DNA of 64,000 bases, from the NCBI RefSeq assembly GCF_008831285.2, contig NC_045138.2:20553934-20617933 (forward strand), read 5' to 3'. A program made the translations under genes and the position numbers. The DNA comes from Nymphaea colorata (taxonomy: Eukaryota > Streptophyta > Magnoliopsida > Nymphaeales > Nymphaeaceae). The notes below the pieces were generated by a model that saw nothing but the letters and a program-made list of their open reading frames with translations, had not been told where the DNA came from and did no database searches. This document shows, piece after piece, positions 38,735 through 55,383 of the stretch. Within the stretch, counting starts at the first letter, position 1. Each line of letters starts with the position of its first letter.

Positions 38735-39745
38735 ATGAAATAAATGATCATCTCATCTTTCCATGCTCCCAGTGCACTTGAGCATAGCCTCTTGTCTCTA
38801 AAAAGAGATTGAGTGCTATCTCCTTTGGCCATGGGGAGATAAAGATGAGAAGAAAATAAAGAAATGAAAGCAATGCTGCATTCAATAAAAGGGAAAACAT
38901 GATTCAATCGTGAAATGAAAGATTATCTCATCTTTCCATGCTCCCGGCGCACTTGAGCATAGCCTCTTGTCTCTAAAAAGAGGTTGAGTGCTATTTCCTT
39001 TGGCATGAAGATGAGAAGGGAAGATGAAAACAATAACAAGACTATGTTCAAGAAAAAGAAATAGCATAATAATAACATATTAATGAAAAATAACAACAAC
39101 AAAAATACTTGAAAGAGCATGATTTAATCATAAAACAAAATATCTTTTCATCTTCTTATGCTCTCGGTGCACTTGAGCATAGCCTCTTGTCTCTAAAAAG
39201 AGGTTGAGTGCTATCTCTTTTGGCCATGGAGAGATGAAGATGAGAAGAGAAAATGAAAACAATCAACAAAACTATGTTCAAGAAAAAGGAATAGCATAAT
39301 AATAAGAACATATTAATGAAAAATAACAACAACAAGAATATTTGAAAAAGTATGATTTAATCATAAAATAAAATACCATATCATCTTTTCATGCTCCCGG
39401 TGTACTTGAACATAGCCTCTTGTCTCTAAAAAGATGTTAAGTGCTATCTCCTTTGGCCATGATGAGATGAAGATGAGAAGAGAAAATGAAAACAATCAAC
39501 AAGACTATGTTCAAGAAAAATGAATAGCATAATAATGAGAATATATTAATGAAAAATAACAACAACAAGAATACTTGAAAGAACATGATTTAATTATAAA
39601 ATAAAATATCATCTCATCTTCTTATGTTCTCGGTACACTTGAGCATAGTCTCTTGTCTATAAAAAGAAGTTGAGTGTTATCTCCTTTGGCCATGGAGAGA
39701 TCAAAATGAGAGAAAAATAAAGAAATGAGATGATGATGATTACAT
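38735..39745. repeat. Five-copy tandem repeat, about 175-232 bp period, inside the solo LTR
   Basis: CACTTGAGCATAGCCTCTTG followed by TCTCTAAAAAGAGGTTGAGTG recurs at about 38776, 38950, 39170, 39401 and 39632. The later units add a segment with ACTATGTTCAAGAAAAA and AATAACAACAACAA. Spacing grows from about 174 to about 232 bp. Confidence 0.9.
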
Positions 39746-40150
39746 ACCTCTAATAAGAAATGACCTAAGGAACATAAACACCTTCACTTGAAGATCACCT
39801 TGAAGCTCCAAGATGATGCCTCCAAGAGGATTGTAATAGCACTACAAAACAAATCTTATAATATATCAAAACATTTGCATGCATACATACATTCACTCAC
39901 AAAACAATCATTCAATCACATCGCAATCCTAGGATCTCACAGTCATACCTCTAATAAGAAATGACCTAAGGAAGATAAACACCTTCACTTGAAGATCACA
40001 TTGAAGCTCCAAGATGATGCCTCCAAGAAGATTGTAATAGCACTACAAAACAAATCTTATAATATATCAAATCATTTGCATGCATACATACATTCACTCA
40101 CAAAACAATCATTCAATCACATCGCAATCCTAGGATCCCACGGTCATAGG
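39743..40150. repeat. Two-copy tandem repeat of 201 bp inside the solo LTR
   Basis: CATACCTCTAATAAGAAATG at 39743 and again at 39944 opens two almost identical units that end with CGCAATCCTAGGATC. A third, aborted start (CATACCTGTCGGG) follows near 40203. Confidence 0.92.
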
Positions 40151-44069: not shown

Positions 44070-44233
44070 ATTTTTATCCATCATAAAAAACATATTAGAG
44101 TTTTTAACGGGGGCAATTTCTTTAGAGAAAGATCACCACTGCTCCTCAACTTTCTTTCTTCTACGATTTTTCCATTCCCTTTATTTATCATCCTTTTTTT
44201 TACTCCATTTTCCTTAATTTCCATGGCATTGAA

Positions 44234-44331
<98 letters not shown>

Positions 44332-44822
44332 GTTTAATGAAACCCTTTTTGCTACGTCGTTCAATCCTATATTTGAGTAGAGGCAAAAGAAGAGCTCCCA
44401 TGCACTATGAAAGCGAAGAAAGTAGGGAAATTTCTATTTTTCGTCTTACCTTTTACTTTTATAATTTCAAAAAATGAAGCACTGTTTATTATTCCCTAAA
44501 AGAGACAGTTTCCGTAAAGCTGTTAAAAAAGGGCCAACGTTGACTTTTTTTTTGTTAAAAAAAATACAAACACGTAGGTTCGCTTTTCAAGTTTACAAAA
44601 ATTCACTTCATGCCCTTATATGTTTCTCGCCTTTTTAGACAATATTGTGTACACTGCTGTTCGTGCAGATGGAGAAATTCATGTTAACCATTTCAAATTC
44701 AGATTTGATCAGTGACGTGTTTACTTAATTAGTTAGTTCCAAAAGGAACCGAGGTGCGTTTCTATCTTTATTTTTTCAAGAAAGACAAAACAAATCAACC
44801 TGGAATTCACTCTTCCCGACTC
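44070..44822. repeat. Left copy of a 0.75-kb direct duplication flanking the Harbinger element
   Basis: From ATTTTTATCCATCAT to CTTCCCGACTC this 753-bp segment is repeated at 51514-52231. Apart from the length of the (TA)n/(CA)n array (44233-44330 here) the only difference I find is one base (CGTCGTTC here, CGTCTTC there). Its right edge is immediately followed by the transposon end GGGCCCG. Confidence 0.97.
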
Positions 44823-44828
44823 GGGCCC

Positions 44829-45047
44829 GTTTGATGGGCGGGTGAAATTTAACACGGTAAGTTTACCAAGGTAAATTTTTCTAGAAAAATTTAGTGGATG
44901 AAATTTTACCCTCTTCCAAAACGAGACCCTGTTTGATTGTCGGGTGAAATTTAACGTGGTAAATTTAACCCAGTTTGATGAACATGAAGAATTTAACGTG
45001 GTAAATTTAACCCTGTTTGATGCACATGGAAAATTTAACATGGAAAA
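44829..45047. repeat. Subterminal repeats of the Harbinger element, left end
   Basis: GTTTGATNNNCRNGTGAAAT-like starts followed by TTTAACRYGGTAAATTTAAC recur at about 44829, 44931, 44972 and 45016. The first copy includes the terminal repeat itself. Such arrays are usually transposase-binding sites; that role is an inference. Confidence 0.85.
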
Positions 45048-45364
45048 TGTTGTTTTTTTTTTTTCCTTCCCAATTCCACTTTGGAAGGAGCAGAACCCAT
45101 ATATTTCTTCATCAATCATCCCAAAACAAATCACCATACAACCAGTTCATTAAAAGACACGGCCATTCACACGATATATATAACAAAAAGCAAAAAAAAA
45201 TATCTAGCAACACATTACAACAGAAAACACCTTCTTAACTTAATTTATAACTGCAAAAGTTATATATTTGTTCCCAAAAACATTAAACAGAAATTGTCCA
45301 CAAAAGTAACATGAGTACGAATCCACAAAAGGGTGTACTTTCTACTAAGAAGAAAAAACAAAGT

Positions 45365-45691
45365 TCAATGAGTACATATCCAACAAAGAAAACATGTAAT
45401 CACAAAACAAGTAATCCAACATTTCTGGCTGCACTTTCGTTCTTCAAACTTCGTGTCTTCTATATCTTGCTTTGCGATGACATCTTCAATGAGTGGAGAC
45501 CTGCTTGCTTGCACACCATACTTGTTCTGGAGATACTCATGCATGTGATTTTCTGCTACTTGTAATGAATTAAACGATCTGAAAACGGCACCCTTGTACC
45601 GATAGACTAATGGTTGGCACCGCTCCCAGCTGTCATATATGCCTCGCTCACGTCCTTCGAAAACCACATAGTACTTTTGGTGGGGCATCAT
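45365..45691 (-). CDS. Small protein with RNase H1 N-terminal (viroplasmin-type) domain, inside the Harbinger element
   Basis: From the first useful ATG (45691) the frame codes 108 residues. Residues 5-50 carry YYVVFEGRERGIYDSW, ERC, YKGAVFRSFNSL and AENHMHEYL, which follow the RNase H1 N-terminal pattern Y-V-V-GR-PGIY-SW--C---V-G--GA-F-SF-S---A. This small fold binds RNA/DNA hybrids or double-stranded RNA. No RNase H catalytic domain follows. The C-terminal half is charged, then Cys-rich with a hydrophobic end. It lies 57 bp downstream of the transposase stop, same strand; an acceptor-like CAG (45702-45704) precedes it, so it may be an exon of a longer transcript. The role is unknown. The domain call is an inference from motif order. 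Confidence 0.6.
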   Translation of the reverse strand: MMPHQKYYVVFEGRERGIYDSWERCQPLVYRYKGAVFRSFNSLQVAENHMHEYLQNKYGVQASRSPLIEDVIAKQDIEDTKFEERKCSQKCWITCFVITCFLCWICTH

Positions 45692-45747
45692 TTTCGTTGT
45701 CCTGTTGAAAAGAAAACAAATGTCAGACAATCAAACTGAAGAAGTAG

Positions 45748-47111
45748 TCAACATTTATAAACAAACTTACTAGTCAATTGATAATCTGTAAACATTTGAG
45801 ATGATATAGCTGCTCTCAAAGCATTGTTGCTTCCTCGCTGATGTGTTTGGCTTGCAATTTCAGGTTCGCTTAAGACGAAGTTATCAATCGAAGGTGCATC
45901 TTCATCATCAAATTGCTCGGCATTTGGATTGTGTTCAATTATGAAGTTGTGTAGTACACATGTAGCAAGAACAATTTGAGCTTGTTTTTGGAAAGGATAC
46001 TGAACTTGCATTTTCAATATTGGAAAACGACCTTTCAACATGCCGAAAGTTCTTTCTACTGTATTTCGAAGTGATGAATGCCTATGGTTGAATAATTCTT
46101 CTTCTGTTCTAGGTGAACGTGCTCCCCGAGTGTTAAACTCAGACATATGATAACGATGTCCTCGATAAGGTGTAAGCAAACCAACAATGTTTGGATACCC
46201 CCCATCAGCCAGATAAAATTTGCCTACAATTGAACACAATTTATTTATACATTGATACATGCTTCTTAATAAAAGACTGAACTGGTTGGTGGAACTACGT
46301 ACCTTCTGGGACAACAAATGGGTCTGTTTCATGATCTAGTGCATTGTACAATACTCTTGAGTCTGTTGCACTTCCTTCCCATCCAGCCAAAACGTAGTGG
46401 AATCTAGTATCTAGGCCGACTACAGCCATGACGTTTTGAGAAATGAAACCTTTTCTATTGCGAAACCTTGCTTGATCTGAAAAAGGAACCCAAGCCGGTA
46501 TATGTGTGCCATCGATTGCTCCTAAACAATTCTATATGACAAGGCAACTAGTTAGTCATGTTGTAGTTTGTCATGTTGTATGTGTCATGTTGAGTTCAAG
46601 ATGATGAAATTACCTCAAAATATGGAAAGAATCGTTTAGAATGTCGAATATGTGCTGGCATCATCTCATCATTGGGCCGGCGAACGTAATCCTTACCCAG
46701 TATACATATCGCTCGTAGCACTAGGCTGACATATTTACTTATTGTTTGTCCGGAATGTTGAAACGTATTTTGAACAGCACGATTCCGTTTATTATGTCCA
46801 ATTGTCAAAAGCAATATAGCTACTTGTTCTTCTACAGTAATGTCACGAGCATCCTCCAACAAATTTCTATTCCTTAGAATGTTGCACAATCTCATATATG
46901 TATGTCCTTCCATACGGAGTAAGTCCAAACAATTTCTAGGATGACCACGAAGCATTAGTTGGACAAAAGATGTACCAGCATCTCGAAATGGATGAACAAT
47001 CCTCCTAGACGATGGTCGGTCTTTCAACCAAAAGAAGATGAAGACAAAAACCATTCGAATGATGAAAAGCACTCGTTCATCGTCGTCATCGAACATGTCA
47101 AAATCAATCAT
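45748..47111 (-). CDS. PIF/Harbinger DDE transposase
   Basis: This enzyme cuts the element out and inserts it elsewhere, in the nucleus, together with the Myb-like partner. Three exons on the minus strand join in frame: 47111-46614, 46531-46303 and 46223-45748, with GTAATT...TAG and GTACGT...TAG borders, giving 400 residues, the family size. An acidic N-terminus leads to a helix-turn-helix region (residues about 60-140: VEEQVAILLLTIGHN...FQHSGQTISKYV). The catalytic triad is visible: D173 in GAIDGTHIP, D249 in YLADGGYP and E299 in NTVERTFGMLK. VLHNFIIEHNP near residue 340 is the usual C-terminal helix. I see no stop or frameshift, so the enzyme may be functional. A strong donor GTAAGT at 45770 suggests an alternative 3' end. 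Confidence 0.93.
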
Positions 47112-47290
47112 TTCGACTAAACTGCATATACATGTAAGGTACTTGAATAACAAAATCAATCATTTCAACTAAACTGCATATACATGTAAGGTACTTGAAT
47201 AACAAAATCAATCATTTCGACTAAACTGCATATACATGTAAGGTACTTGAATAACAAAATCAATCATTTCGACTAACCTGCAAATACATT
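47098..47290 (-). repeat. 52-bp tandem repeat over the transposase start
   Basis: CAAAATCAATCATTTCGACT plus AAACTGCATATACATG and TAAGGTACTTGAATAA is repeated about 3.6 times; the last copy differs (ACCTGCAAATACATTG). Read on the minus strand each unit contains the ATG that opens the transposase frame. Confidence 0.95.
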
Positions 47291-47405
47291 GCAGCAATTT
47301 CTCACTACATGGATGTTCATGGAATAAAAAGAAAAACACACAACAAATTGAACTTGTGCTAAATGAAACATACAAATAATTAAACTAACAGACATGGAAA
47401 CTTAC

Positions 47406-48362
47406 CTACAAATCACCAAGTCTACGCGACAACCATGTCAGCCGGTCTTCAGGTGGAACGTTGAGAAAGATCATGGAATTGGTTCCCTCTCCTAATAGGT
47501 CCAGACTCATCAGTCTCGTATGACTATCTAGTAGCCCTGTGTCCACCATCTCTTGTAAAATTTCACAACATTTGACATATTGAAACCCTCTAGAAGTATG
47601 TGTGAGGGAATCCACATTTTTAGCTATACCGTTCAACAAATTGTAATACATGTCATCGTTGGTTGACTTGTTCCGTTTTGACCTACGTGTACTTGTATTG
47701 GTTGTCGGATTCTCAGTTGTAGGAGTTGTAGGTAGTGGCGACTGTGTAAATGACTGTTCACTATCAGGCTGCATGTACGAAGGTGATGTCTGAGATGCAG
47801 GTGTACATGGGAGTGGTTCAGTCTCAGCTTCAAGCACGTTGTTTAATGTGACTGCGTTTTGCCCAGTTGCATGAGATTCGCCATATACCTCGGCGAACTC
47901 ATCATAGTATCTCCAGACTTTTGGACCTCTGTACTTTTTCCTATTTGGATATTTCTGAAAAAATTCATGTGTTCAAATATTGCAGAAGTAAATACATGTG
48001 AGACAAAACCTAACAATATTAATTTTATAATTTACCTCAATGTAGTCGTTCCATACTTGGGGGTCGACCTCAATGCATTTGTTAATTGGGTCGTAGCCAA
48101 ACCCACTTGTGTTCAACATTTCCTTCATCACTGTCAAGTTGGGTTTGGAATACTTCAATTTGTTTTTTATTTTGTCTTTCGTGAATTCTAGACCGAATCT
48201 ATCCATCATTGCTTTTTCAATAGCTGTGTATGCTTTGGGCTTCAAACCTCCACCGGATTTCATGCCAGGGATGCGTGACTGCTCCACAAGAAGCTGGACT
48301 AAGTAATCCATTTGTGGTTCAGTCCACGTAAGATTTTCTCTTGAAGGACCGCTGTCTTCCAT
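47406..48362 (-). CDS. Myb/SANT-like DNA-binding protein of the Harbinger element (ORF1)
   Basis: In PIF/Harbinger elements this protein binds DNA and helps carry the transposase into the nucleus. Exons 48362-48036 and 47954-47406 join at GAG|AAA with a GTAAAT...CAG intron, giving 291 residues. The Myb/SANT-like domain covers residues about 10-140: LTWTEPQMDYLVQLLVEQ near the start, IKNKLKYSKPNLTVMKEML in the middle, and after the join RGPKVWRYYDEFAEVYG. A Ser/Thr/Pro-rich linker (about residues 150-190) contains the basic STRRSKRNKS, a possible nuclear signal. The C-terminal ends GTNSMIFLNVPPEDRLTWL, a motif common in this family. The frame is unbroken. It lies about 295 bp upstream of the transposase, same strand. 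Confidence 0.9.
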
Positions 48363-50740
48363 GTTAACGTTTTGTATAATAATTCTTCACAGTAACAGTA
48401 ATATAAATCTAGCATGAAGAACATACGAGAAACAACGACAAAGGAGCATCAGAAACCATAAAAGCATAAGTAGACCTTTCATACACAGAAAAGAAAGGAC
48501 AAAAGACGTCAGCAATAAACTGCACTCTAAATCCAATGAAAGTGTTTTTGTGAGAACGATGAGCTAATGCTATATGTTATGTTCCATCCATAGAAAAGAT
48601 CATTACATGTTTTTCTTTCGTCAAAAACATATAAGAGAACAATAACTGAGAATAGAACAATAAGAGATGGTGACACAGTTTAAATATAAATGTGACCATA
48701 GTAAATCTAAAATCTGAACAAAACAAAGCTGTGAAAATAGAAAACACATCTAAATTCCAATAAAATATATAACACATCTAAATGTCAATAAAAAAATATA
48801 TAACACATCTAAATGTCAAATAAAATATATAAGGAACAACGATTAGATGCCACCAACTATAAGTTAAGCTAAAGCACTTTCATGTCTCCAAGGAGGGGGG
48901 GGGGGGCATGCAGGTGAAGGTGAAGCTAGACGAGGCTGAAAAGCATGTTCATATCTGTATTCTCAAATTCTAATTGCTAGTGAATCCATGTGAATGAAAA
49001 ATGTCCTTCCTTTAAGTAGATTTCAGTCAAATTTCCTCAAAATGATTCAAATATCATGGCTGTTTCTACTATTGTTGGGCCCATAAATGTCTCTTATACT
49101 TGTTCTTTTGGTTAACCTTCCTTTCGAGAAATGAAGTTTCTATCATCCAGTAATTACCATTCATGTTCTTATTTACTCACCCTGTTACAGGGACAGGAAT
49201 TGGACCCAGTGACTGCATTAACTGTGTAATGCTATTTGATAGCAGGTGCTTTCTTATTTTTGTTAATACGCACACACACACATGCATACGGAATTGTGTA
49301 TCAAATGGATTTAGTTCCAATTGGACCCAGTGACTGCATTAACTGAGTAATGCTATTTGATAGCAGGTGCTTCCAATGACAAAGTATATTGATACGATTT
49401 TCATTTTCAAAAACAAGGAGCCAACATAAAATATTTATGTTTTTTAGTTTATAAGTCATATTAAAGAAGTTTTTGTTCTCCCTTTTTTGGCTTATAAAAT
49501 GTCAACTGAACAAGAAGGACCTTCCGTTAATTATTAAACTTCTAGACGTGGACAAGTTTCAACTATAAGAGCTTTTGTGTAAACTCATATTTCACCAAAC
49601 TGTCTAAAATAGACAAGTCTTCAGCTTATTTAATAAATTTAACTTCTGTCTTCAAGAAATGAAGATTGGGAAAAAGTGTATAAAGCAGGAATTGCTCCAA
49701 AGTCTCTAAGGTGAATTGACCAACAAAATGTACCCATTTTAGAACAGTATGTTGTTAACTGTCTGCTCATTGGGTAGACTAAAAAAACAATCTTTTCGTA
49801 ACTTTACATCATAACTTTACAGGTAAAATAGATCTACTCTTAATTTCAAGAAATATTCAAACCCCATTCGACTCAAAAGGCTAGGCAGAGTGCCTGGTGA
49901 CTTGGTGTGGATTGGCTTACAGGTTACTGTGAACAGGACGCTGAGGTCCCACGTTTTTCACATCAAGCTGTTTGAGTGAGAGCACTTGCTCACAGCCAAA
50001 TCTTGTGGGTCCTGCAGCCACATGGAACTTGCACCAATTTGTCAAGGCCAATTATATGGCTGGAACCAGGACCATGAGCTTCCTCTCCCAGACCAGTCCA
50101 ACAGAACCTACAACTTCATAGCAGGTGTGGATACATTCACAACCACTTAACTATGAAAAGAAAAGCATTTGGTTTTGGTAGCCCACAACTTCACCAAATC
50201 ATTGATGACTAAACAAAGGCGTCAACAGCATAAGAAATTGAACACAGAGAGAGAGAGCAACTTCACCAAATAATTGAATGCCTAAACAAATGCATCAGCA
50301 ACAAAAGAAATATGATATTGGATGTAGCAAAGACGAGAGAAAGAGGGAGCAGAGCAGAAGAAGAACAGTTTATGCTCCTTTTGTCTTTGCATGGAACTGG
50401 GAACCACAAGAGAGTCATCCTATTTGACTTTGTAAAACAGGTAAAGGACACACCAAACTCACGGGCGGCCATTTTTGAAAGAAATATTTGAGCATCTTCC
50501 CTTTCTGCGTCTCTTGACAGTCCCAGATAGACAACCCATTATAAGTTATAAGGCACTGTGGTACTCTTAATGTTGGTCTTTCACAAAAGAACTTGAGAAG
50601 GCAGGACAGGAACTCCAGGAACAGAGATCGATTACTCATTTGTCAGATAGGTTCCTGTACAGGCAACTTGCGTCGCTGAAATCTAAGCCCCGTTTCTATC
50701 TAAGCACCCAAAGGCCGTAATAAGGGATAACATAATGAAA
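48363..50740. other. Non-coding interior of the Harbinger element
   Basis: No recognisable gene. Contents include a G-run (48895-48906), direct repeats of about 53 bp (ATTGGACCCAGTGACTGCAT plus the following TAACTGNGTAATGC and GATAGCAGGTGCTT at 49199 and 49319) and a (CA)n run between them. Confidence 0.5.
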
Positions 50741-50744
50741 CTCA

Positions 50745-51380
50745 GAGAAAAGAACGGCGATACTGATAACGAGATAAGGTTAAGGCAACCATTTCTATGC
50801 CTCCAGGGGCTAAGAGAAAAGAACGGCGATACTGTAGGCGATCATCTGCTTTATCAAGATAAAATTCATGCGAAAGAAACAGCACAGAGAAAGGGGGGAA
50901 ATGTGGGCAGCTAGCGACGGGGAGAGAGAGAGAGAGAGAGTGACAGAGAGATATACCGGCAGAAAAATGTCCGACGCCGGCCGCTTGAGGGTGTTGCGAC
51001 GGTCGACTGTGAAACCCTGACAGTGAGAAGGAACGAGGGAGGAAAAAAATTGGGGCATTAGTCTACGCGAAAAAAATGGGGGCATTTGAGGGTGCTACCC
51101 AGCACAGAGAAAGGGGGGAAATCTGGTGAAGAAAGGTAAGAAATGTGGGCAGCTAGCGACAGAGAGAGAGAAAGAGAGAGAGAGAGCGACAGAGAGATAT
51201 ACCGGCAGAAAAACCTCCGACGCCGGCCGCTTGAGGGTCTTGCGACGATCGACGGTGAGACCTGGCAGTGAGAAGGCACGAGGGAGGAGGAGTTGCGGAG
51301 GGAGGTCGAGCGTTGCGGAGGGACTTCGAGCGCTGCGGAGGGAGGTCGAGCGTTGCGGAGGGACTTCGAGCGCGGCAGCA
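50745..51380. repeat. GC-rich duplicated block near the right end of the Harbinger element
   Basis: A block starting CAGCACAGAGAAAGGGGGGA and containing GTGGGCAGCTAGCGAC, a (GA)n run, GATATACCGGCAGAAAAA, CGACGCCGGCCGCTTGAGGG and GAGAAGG occurs at about 50879-51043 and 51100-51290. AGAAAAGAACGGCGATACTG occurs twice just before (50749 and 50815). Then GCGGAGGGAGGTCGAGCGTT / GCGGAGGGACTTCGAGCG units of 18 bp alternate four to five times at 51294-51375. This CpG-rich part could hold the promoter for the minus-strand genes. Confidence 0.85.
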
Positions 51381-51400
51381 GAAAAGCATTGATGGGTATA

Positions 51401-51432
51401 TTTCGAGCGGGTGAAATTTCACCCGCTCGAAA
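51401..51432. repeat. 32-bp perfect palindrome near the right end of the Harbinger element
   Basis: TTTCGAGCGGGTGAAA is followed directly by its reverse complement. A second inverted word, GGTGAAATTTCACC, lies at 51443-51456. Both contain the GGGTGAAATT core that also follows the terminal repeat on the left. Confidence 0.95.
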
Positions 51433-51513
51433 GTCCGAGCTCGGTGAAATTTCACCCGCCCGTACAAATTTTTCCTCCCCCGCCCACTTTCACCTGCCCA
51501 TCAAACGGGGGCA

Positions 51514-51677
51514 ATTTTTATCCATCATAAAAAACATATTAGAGTTTTTAACGGGGGCAATTTCTTTAGAGAAAGATCACCACTGCTCCTCAACTTTCTT
51601 TCTTCTACGATTTTTCCATTCCCTTTATTTATCATCCTTTTTTTTACTCCATTTTCCTTAATTTCCATGGCATTGAA

Positions 51678-51741
<64 letters not shown>

Positions 51742-52231
51742 GTTTAATGAAACCCTTTTTGCTACGTCTTCAATCCTATATTTGAGTAGAGGCAAAAGAA
51801 GAGCTCCCATGCACTATGAAAGCGAAGAAAGTAGGGAAATTTCTATTTTTCGTCTTACCTTTTACTTTTATAATTTCAAAAAATGAAGCACTGTTTATTA
51901 TTCCCTAAAAGAGACAGTTTCCGTAAAGCTGTTAAAAAAGGGCCAACGTTGACTTTTTTTTTGTTAAAAAAAATACAAACACGTAGGTTCGCTTTTCAAG
52001 TTTACAAAAATTCACTTCATGCCCTTATATGTTTCTCGCCTTTTTAGACAATATTGTGTACACTGCTGTTCGTGCAGATGGAGAAATTCATGTTAACCAT
52101 TTCAAATTCAGATTTGATCAGTGACGTGTTTACTTAATTAGTTAGTTCCAAAAGGAACCGAGGTGCGTTTCTATCTTTATTTTTTCAAGAAAGACAAAAC
52201 AAATCAACCTGGAATTCACTCTTCCCGACTC
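51514..52231. repeat. Right copy of the direct duplication flanking the Harbinger element
   Basis: This 718-bp segment repeats 44070-44822, with a shorter (TA)n array (51687-51740). It continues into unique sequence leading to the aspartic protease gene, so this is probably the original position of the segment. Confidence 0.97.
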
Positions 52232-52619: not shown

Positions 52620-55383
52620 ATGAGGCGCTCTCATCTGCTGCCAATTGTGAGGTGCGTGGCAGCAGTAACGCTCCTCTCTTGCTGCTGCTGCTGCCTGGCT
52701 GCGGAAGGCGGCAGTGAGGTGGATGGTAGCTCACTTCTCCTCCAAAGCCACCTCCGAAAGTCCACTGTCATCTTCCCCATGAACGGCAGCGTCTATCCTG
52801 ATGGGTGGGTATTAAGATACTCTCTCTCTCTCATTCACGCACGCACACAGACACAGGCTTATGGATGATGACGAATCATAGTCTAAATGGGTAAAATCGA
52901 AAAACAAATCAAATTACAGTTATTCGACATGTTTTATTGATTTTATGTGGCTTGTCTGGTTGAATCCTCAAAATTACCTCAACAAATGGTGGAAAATCGC
53001 ATCCCATCAAGGGAGACTCTGCCGGATTCACGGTGACCAAGTCAATTTGAATCTCTTGGATTAGGGCCAACACGACTCTGGTTTCTTGCAGTTTTCAGTT
53101 TTGAAATCCCATCTGTGAATAAACAGTACCATGAGAAGATGGGGAGGCTTATTTCTGCGCTTGCCCGCAAGTTTTGATGTTACCTAAGAATTTCACGGCG
53201 AAGCCTGCCATCCGAGCGTCTAAGATCACCACCTTTCTTCATTTGCCATGCTAAAATGAATCTCTAATATTCCCCAACTCTGGCCCCTGTTCAACTGAAA
53301 TGAACCGAATCAGAGTGAAGATCGTGTTTAAGAAATGACCCGAATATCATCATGATCGTCTCAATGAATAGCTGGTGTTCTGCAGGCTTTTCTATGTAAC
53401 TATGTGGATTGGCAAGCCTCCCAAACCATACTTCCTTGATGTGGACACAGGGAGTGACCTTACTTGGCTCCAATGTGATGCCCCCTGCATTAGTTGCTCT
53501 CAGGTAATAAAAAATGGCAACTGTTGAGCAAAGCTATGATGATTTCTGTTATAATCTGCTTTTCGTTCTTTTGGTTTGTCTGTATTTACCGATGGCATCC
53601 ATCTTGTAAACGCTTGTAGGGAGCGCACCCTCTCTACAAACCAAAGAAGACCAACTTGGTTCCTTGTGGGGATCCGCAATGCATTTCTTTGGGTTCACTA
53701 AGGGAGTATGAATGTGAAAAGCCAGACCAGCAATGCGACTATTTGATTGAATATGCAGATCGCAGTTCGTCACTCGGTGTCATTGTGAAGGAAACCTTCT
53801 ACCTTCGTTCTGCAAGTGGTACCCTGCTTCGTCCTTCTCTTTCATTCGGGTAAGTCGCCATGCTTTGAAAGGATGGATGGATGCATATTGCTGGATGTTC
53901 ATGATAAAACTGCTTCTCATAATTCATATCCGGTTCGCTATTGTTTGCAGTTGTGGATATGATCAACGAGGCTCCTTAGCGAATCTTCAATCTGCTGCTG
54001 ATGGCATACTCGGCCTTGGCAGTGGGAAACCGAGCATTGTTTCTCAGTTGAAGGATCATGGAATTGCCACAAATGTGATTGGCCATTGTATCAGTCCACA
54101 GGGAAAAGTAGGGTACCTTTTCTTTGGCGATGATCTTGTACCTTCTACTAAAAGTGCTACATGGATTGCAATGCACAGCCATCCATCAGGGTAATTAGCT
54201 CTCCACATATTCTCTTCCTAGAGAGTCTATGGTTTCAAATCCTTTTATCTCTTCTCTTCGTTTACATTGTTGCTCTTACTTGAACCTTAAGTATTTTAAA
54301 GAAAGTAGCTGTTGTCGTACCATATTTTGTTGGTTTAATGCATTCAGTATATGTTGCCTCACATGTCAATTTGCCTAAAATTTTGTTTACATATGAAGAG
54401 AAAAAATATGGTGCTTCTAGCCTATTGAAATCCCTTTTCTAAGGCGCTGGTGTGCCAACCATGCAATCAGACACCTAGGTTCCTGGTCTTGTACCTTAGT
54501 TATAAGCATGGATGTTTCCCTTTGCTAATGAATTACAGAATGCAGTGAAAGTAGAACTTTTTTTGTGGCTAAACCTTGGGCTTCATATGTTCAGGAAATA
54601 CTCCCCTGGACCTGCAGACCTGGTTTTAGGCAAGCAGCGGATTAAAGATCTTATGGTCATCTTTGATAGTGGCAGCTCATACACTTACTTCACTTCCCGT
54701 GTATATGAGGTGCTGCTCTCAGAGGTCAGTTCAAATGAAACAGGTGGAAGGAAAGCCTTTCTAGTTATACTATTCCATCTCCTTGACAAAGCACCTCATT
54801 TCTGTGTTCTCAGATAAGCAAAGATCTTTCAGGAAAGCCCATCAAGAAAACGAGAGAGGATATAGCACTGCCCTTGTGCTGGCAAGGTCCAAAGGCATTC
54901 ACTTCTTTTTCTGAAGTCAACAATTACTTCAAGCAAATGGTTCTGGAATTCAAGAACAGCAAGAAAGCTAAGCTTACAATGTCGCCAGAAAATTATTTGA
55001 TCATCACTGTATGTGTCTCCATCACATGAGTTCCTATCCTGATCCTTTTACTGCTTTTTTAAGTTTTAGAAAGGGAAAAACAAAAAAGTGACACTGAATT
55101 TTCTTCAGGCACAGGGAAATGTATGCTTGGGCATCCTGAATGGAACTGAGGTAGACCTTGGCGACCTGAATCTTATTGGAGGTAATAATGGTTGAAATGA
55201 ACTGCACTTGACATTGTCACAAGTGATGAATCTAAACTGCGAGAATTGATCTTCTTTTGGCCTCTGTTCTCAGACATCTCGATGCAATCACATGTGATCG
55301 TGTATGACAACGAGAATCATCAGATTGGCTGGGCGCCTGCAAACTGCAACAGGCTTCCAATGTTCGAAGCACATTCTTTGTGA
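52620..55383 (+). CDS. Nucellin/Asp1-like aspartic protease (family A1)
   Basis: Plant A1 proteases of this type are secreted or endomembrane enzymes that cut peptide bonds with two Asp residues. Eight exons join in frame: 52620-52804, 53386-53503, 53620-53849, 53951-54190, 54595-54724, 54814-55008, 55109-55181 and 55274-55383, all GT...AG, giving 426 residues. Residues 1-28 form a signal peptide (basic start, then VAAVTLLSCCCCCLA). The first active site is FLDVDTGSDLTWLQCD (exon 2), the second VIFDSGSSYTYF (exon 5). Exon 3 has the Cys-rich insert (VPCGDPQC, CEKPDQQCDYLIEYAD). Exons 7-8 show GNVCLGILNGTEV, DISMQSHVIVYDNE and IGWAPANC. No break is seen. An alternative last exon (55462-55570) is possible. 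Confidence 0.95.

Follow-up and report, generated by a model that had tools for sequence, protein, structure and literature searches.

The window analysed here, a 64-kb stretch of the 407.8-Mb, 783-contig assembly of Nymphaea colorata, contains a PIF/Harbinger transposon that lies between two direct copies (A and B) of a single segment, upstream of an aspartic-protease-like gene (Table 1). A first-pass annotation of the window had identified the DNA between the copies as a Harbinger transposon, and the domains in its open reading frames (ORFs) support that identification. The transposase matches both DDE_Tnp_4 (PF13359) and Plant_tran (PF04827, E 5.9e-10), a second ORF carries a Myb/SANT-like domain, and the terminal inverted repeats are of the GG(G/C)CC type, whole on the left and three bases short on the right. 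The element thus shares with the Pong/mPing group of PIF/Harbinger transposons its DDE_Tnp_4 transposase, its Myb/SANT-like ORF, and its GGGCCC termini, in a family that makes mostly 3-bp TTA/TAA duplications. It departs from that group in that a 3-bp duplication is missing, the right end is trimmed, and the flanking duplication measures 753 bp. The possibility that the flanking repeats are those of a long terminal repeat retrotransposon was rejected, as the repeats have no further copy in the assembly, start with ATTTTT and end with GACTC, and enclose Harbinger proteins.

Table 1. Features of the Harbinger locus, in window coordinates
Feature	Position	Strand	Details
Copy A of the duplicated segment	44070..44822	+	753 bp; repeat search, alignment
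Template proposed for the right-junction filler, AACGGGGGCAATTT	44106..44119	+	Second copy at 51550-51563 in copy B
TA array, copy A	44240..44330		91 bp; counterpart in copy B at 51688-51740, 53 bp
PIF/Harbinger element	44823..51509		Left end GGGCCCGTTTGATGGGC, complete; right end ...ATCAAACGGG, lacking the terminal CCC of the family
RNase H1 N-terminal (Cauli_VI) ORF inside the element	45365..45730	-	PF01693, E 4.9e-17
Harbinger transposase (DDE_Tnp_4, split over two overlapping ORFs)	45748..46531	-	PF13359, E 4.7e-17 and 1.7e-6
Myb/SANT-like ORF, second Harbinger protein	47973..48386	-	PF12776, E 7.5e-16
Point of missing sequence	51443..51444		About 95 bp, subterminal, partly palindromic, found in both the C6 and the C2 relative
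Filler GGCA between element and copy B	51510..51513		4 bases
Copy B of the duplicated segment	51514..52231	+	718 bp; repeat search, alignment
Aspartic-protease-like gene downstream of copy B	52620..55383	+	TAXi_N in three ORFs (53372-54194); ATG and end placed by eye

Alignment confirmed that copies A and B are nearly identical, as the first-pass annotation had stated. The copies differ in the length of an AC/TA array, which spans 97 bp in copy A and 63 bp in copy B. The remainders of 656 and 655 bases aligned with no substitutions, and their sole difference was a 1-base indel, a G at position 44359 present in A only. The single-base difference reported earlier therefore does lie outside the array, but it is an indel and not a substitution; the count of substitutions outside the (TA)n array, proposed at that time as a check, gave 0 over 655 bases. 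At an assumed 7e-9 substitutions per site per generation, this result sets a rough age ceiling of 0.33 million generations for the duplication, and the earlier view that near identity makes the event recent is a reasonable one. A search of the assembly with the 753-mer, which skips simple repeats, returned copies A and B together with two minus-strand matches that were their own TA arrays, and revealed no paralogous empty site. The 389 bp following copy B likewise occurred at one place in the whole assembly, with no paralogous empty site. No excision footprint was visible by eye at the outer edges of the duplication (CCAC|ATTTTT and GACTC|TTCTAT), which are without TWA (TTA or TAA).

The two junctions between the element and the copies have different structures. 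On the left, a complete GGGCCC terminus follows GACTC, and copy A and the element meet with no base between them (44822|44823). On the right, the last base of the element is 51509, in ...ATCAAACGGG, and next come GGCA and then the start of copy B, ATTTTTATCC. Judged against the canonical termini of other family copies, the left edge is exact, and the right edge has lost three bases (CCC) and gained four (GGCA). The earlier description, in which the edges of the copies met the transposon ends within one or two bases, thus holds on the left and fails on the right. It had been correct in finding no 3-bp TWA duplication: no TWA adjoins either element end, the left triplet being CTC and the right one, after the filler, ATT, and the window copy has no target-site duplication.

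The bases added at the right junction appear to have been copied from nearby. The 14-base string AACGGGGGCAATTT at 51504-51517, which spans the filler, recurs in copies A and B, 36 bases inside the duplicated segment. At one side of the filler, the element shares AACGGG with this template; at the other, ATTT is common to the start of copy B and the end of the template, 46 bases back. When copy A was resampled 5,000 times as a first-order chain, a 14-base match never arose and a 13-base match arose once. Controls on real sequence, with start points drawn at random in the window, reached at least 14 bases in 3 of 4,000 trials with random filler and in 4 of 4,000 with the true filler. The combination expected of polymerase-theta-type end joining, filler templated nearby with microhomology on both sides, was therefore found here, at a match length equaled in three to four of 4,000 controls. 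At the left junction, matches ran to no more than 5 bases with copy A, 7 with the element, and 9 with the roughly 2 kb upstream, which we attribute to chance.

A normal Harbinger insertion has both termini whole and 3 bp duplicated. The ends of the window copy were compared with those of other family copies. All but one of the 29 other left loci start with GGGCC or a one-base variant; the exception, L055, has a mutated terminus. The right-end set comprised 30 loci, of which six stop short of the element end (L020, L021, L023, L027, L028, and L033), leaving 23 besides the window copy. In 22 of these, CCC (or ACCC/CCCC) follows ...ATCAAACGG(G) or a variant with one base changed. The end of L022 is degraded; that of L032 reads GGG-CCC-TAA. 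Exact left ends were counted with a 30-base left-end pattern, copies with an altered terminus falling outside the count. The pattern matched 49 ends including the window copy, and a TWA triplet precedes 37 of the 48 others. The remaining 11 triplets (TTG, ATA, TAG four times, TCA, TGA twice, GAA, and CTA) all begin with T or end with A. A non-TWA triplet alone is therefore not rare in this family; the outlier is CTC, which does neither, in contrast to the triplets of all 48 other exact left ends.

Left and right ends drawn from the best 30 left and best 30 right loci formed 13 pairs, including the window copy. Identical 3-bp target duplications flank 10 of the 12 other pairs, nine with TTA or TAA and one with TTG. 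The other two pairs were not scored as duplication matches: C1:37847533, with a mutated left terminus, prints CAA/TAA (by eye, a TAA lies three bases further out), and C3:21178303 has a degraded right end. When 1.5 kb of flank was searched for a long duplication reaching both element ends, none of the 12 pairs had one. Two weaker matches between flanks were not counted, a 139-bp match of 82% at C6:9255213, which starts near the right end and is more than 600 bp away from the left end, and a 22-bp match at C11:1344841. The family copies are not fully independent, since C1:7595442 and C1:7610656 (L026 and L025), as well as C13:14038895 and C13:14674698 (L063 and L062), have identical 300-bp flanks, indicating that duplication affected these loci as a whole, whether in the genome or only in its assembly. 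Within the assembly, the structure in the window is genuine, and none of the family copies examined matches it.

Among the matches listed, the closest relative of the element is the copy at C6:8099104-8103981 (L065), which has a TTG/TTG target duplication. Together with the 11 exact left ends without TWA, this copy indicates that target choice in the family is not strictly TWA. The left 238 bases of the window element are identical to those of the C6 and C2 copies. Across four main shared blocks, the C6 copy being without two internal stretches, there were 11 mismatches in 4,790 aligned columns, which at the rate used above corresponds very roughly to 0.16 million generations of divergence. 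One stretch missing from the C6 relative, 49367-50066 (about 700 bp), has a 99% match in a copy at C1:37848451, and its part from about 49850 to 50066 resembles, by eye, a retrotransposon gene remnant. The DNA of the RNase H1 N-terminal ORF, which is placed after the transposase, is common to many family copies; the literature search on this ORF yielded work on Helitrons in fungi. The subterminal loss of about 95 bp near 51443, for which L065 and L066 served as reference, could be part of the event that made the junctions or independent of it.

The first-pass annotation had offered two explanations for the locus, repair of a double-strand break and an aberrant insertion with re-replication of the kind described for maize Ac/Ds. 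The trimmed right end, the filler with its 6- and 4-nucleotide microhomologies, and the CTC triplet argue for the first, and the second is less likely. We consider it somewhat probable that a Harbinger element cut from elsewhere was captured as filler during repair of a break upstream of the aspartic-protease-like gene. That the left terminus is exact and the right one nearly complete suggests a prior release of the element by transposase; the lack of a visible target duplication, the trimmed terminus, and the join through templated filler point to end joining as the way it was inserted. The right junction resembles a product of end joining, its 6- and 4-base steps being like those of polymerase theta, as far as can be judged from the sequence. 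Each of these component parts belongs to known break repair or to a known transposon family.

If the element was captured in this way, the event may have proceeded as follows. A Harbinger element would have been released from another site by its transposase while the broken ends at the target each held the same 753 bp, either because two offset nicks had been filled in or because two sister or homologous chromatids had broken at different points. On the left, a blunt join would have been made at the exact terminus of the element. On the right, the element would have lost CCC and annealed through AACGGG to the same six bases inside the duplicated segment. That end could then have copied GGCAATTT, slipped back 46 bases by means of ATTT, and joined the start of copy B in the manner of polymerase theta.

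Known systems resemble parts of this scheme. Polymerase-theta-type end joining and capture at breaks likewise leave short filler copied from nearby and use microhomologies such as the 6- and 4-nucleotide ones found here; the window differs in that the enzyme is a putative one, the pattern is confined to one junction, and the captured piece is nearly a whole 6.7-kb transposon. Small tandem duplications formed from offset nicks also arise when a break with long complementary ends gives a direct duplication (PMC8355091), but no transposon figures in the cases described in the passages cited. In rice, DNA transposons are reported to insert with precision in general and to leave deletions or filler at most excisions; large rearrangements, the authors suppose, are a frequent consequence of Harbinger excision (PMC4423477).

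Several observations weigh against capture during repair. The overhangs in the nick-pair system are about 50 bp and were described in mammalian cells (PMC8355091), compared with the 753-bp stagger that would be required here. Precise excision, through staggered cuts in the target duplications, is reported to be the rule for Tourist/PIF/Pong/Harbinger elements (PMC4561436), so that an untidy Harbinger end would not be the usual product. Because the left junction has neither filler nor notable microhomology, a join made there by transposase is possible. The case for templating is strong but not certain, given the three to four control trials in 4,000 that reached 14 bases. Searches of an open-licence library on aberrant or alternative transposition, Harbinger excision, repair duplications, templated insertions, and capture listed no comparable Harbinger case. 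The more general proposal, that host break repair rather than transposase can re-insert an excised Harbinger element and duplicate hundreds of target bases in doing so, is put forward tentatively.

Alternatively, the locus might record interrupted gap repair, which we regard as unlikely, although less so than the explanations that follow. The element would have inserted in the ordinary way after CTC and later excised; refilling from the sister would have stopped at the right end of the element, switched through AACGGG and then ATTT onto an element-free chromatid, and recopied 753 bp. A single break, made by the transposase itself, would be enough. Such a path explains the templated filler and could explain the loss of about 95 bp near the right end. 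Microhomology-guided template switches during gap filling are known for other DNA transposons (PMC8277862), and target choice in the family is not strict, given TTG/TTG in the closest relative and 11 of 48 exact left ends without TWA. CTC itself, however, is a target unlike that at any of the 48 other exact left ends, and synthesis along a 6.7-kb template would be unlikely to halt three bases or fewer from its end unless the template itself had been cut there.

Another explanation, which we consider improbable, is alternative transposition or re-replication, as in maize Ac/Ds. The transposase would have attached the two element ends at sites 753 bp from each other, within a single duplex or on two sister chromatids, and the duplication would have arisen by fill-in or re-replication. 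Both edges of the duplication do lie at the element ends or a few bases from them. Ac/fAc rearrangements also include direct duplications with the transposon at the joint, in sizes from 8157 bp to 5.3 Mb, and composite insertions with end-joining junctions (PMC3744419, PMC4270019). A single untidy junction would fit if re-replication was aborted there and closed by end joining, as at allele P1-rr-T22, where the joint has a 4-bp microhomology (PMC4270019). In the maize events, however, the ends of two nearby elements take part and 8-bp target duplications mark the breakpoints (PMC3744419, PMC4270019). At this locus, no target-site duplication was seen at the breakpoints, the left triplet is unlike that of the 48 other copies, and no second family terminus was found in the window with up to three mismatches. 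Moreover, strand transfer yields neither a lost CCC nor templated filler.

Misassembly is about as improbable. A heterozygous insertion could have been laid out with one flank given twice, and the two pairs of family copies with identical 300-bp flanks indicate that this assembly does contain duplicated loci, whether genuine or artefactual; the published assembly, which at 409 Mb is similar in size to the present one, was built from PacBio RSII data with Canu (PMC7015852). A false join of haplotypes would be expected within shared sequence, however, and not at a trimmed end with a templated 4-base filler, and copies A and B differ in array length and by one base. Tandem duplication followed by entry of the element into the joint is very improbable, as it requires insertion exactly at the joint without a target duplication, with CCC lost and filler gained.

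Some 390 bases separate the end of copy B from the ATG at 52620, which places the element about 1.1 kb upstream of the protease-like gene, with one uninterrupted copy of the upstream DNA remaining next to that gene. On the other side of the element, adjoining tandem arrays occupy 38898-40148, with 233-bp units (3.6 copies) and 201-bp units (2.0 copies). If the capture reading is correct, the locus records a transposon placed in a chromosome by the break repair of the cell, and the templated 4-base filler makes the path of that repair readable. It would also caution that an absent 3-bp duplication together with long flanking repeats need not signal a new class of transposon. Because the duplication keeps an unbroken upstream copy beside the protease-like gene, such an insertion may escape selection. 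The element would have landed nearly whole in a promoter of which the gene kept a full copy, and this would represent a tolerated, selection-friendly route by which Harbinger elements could spread.

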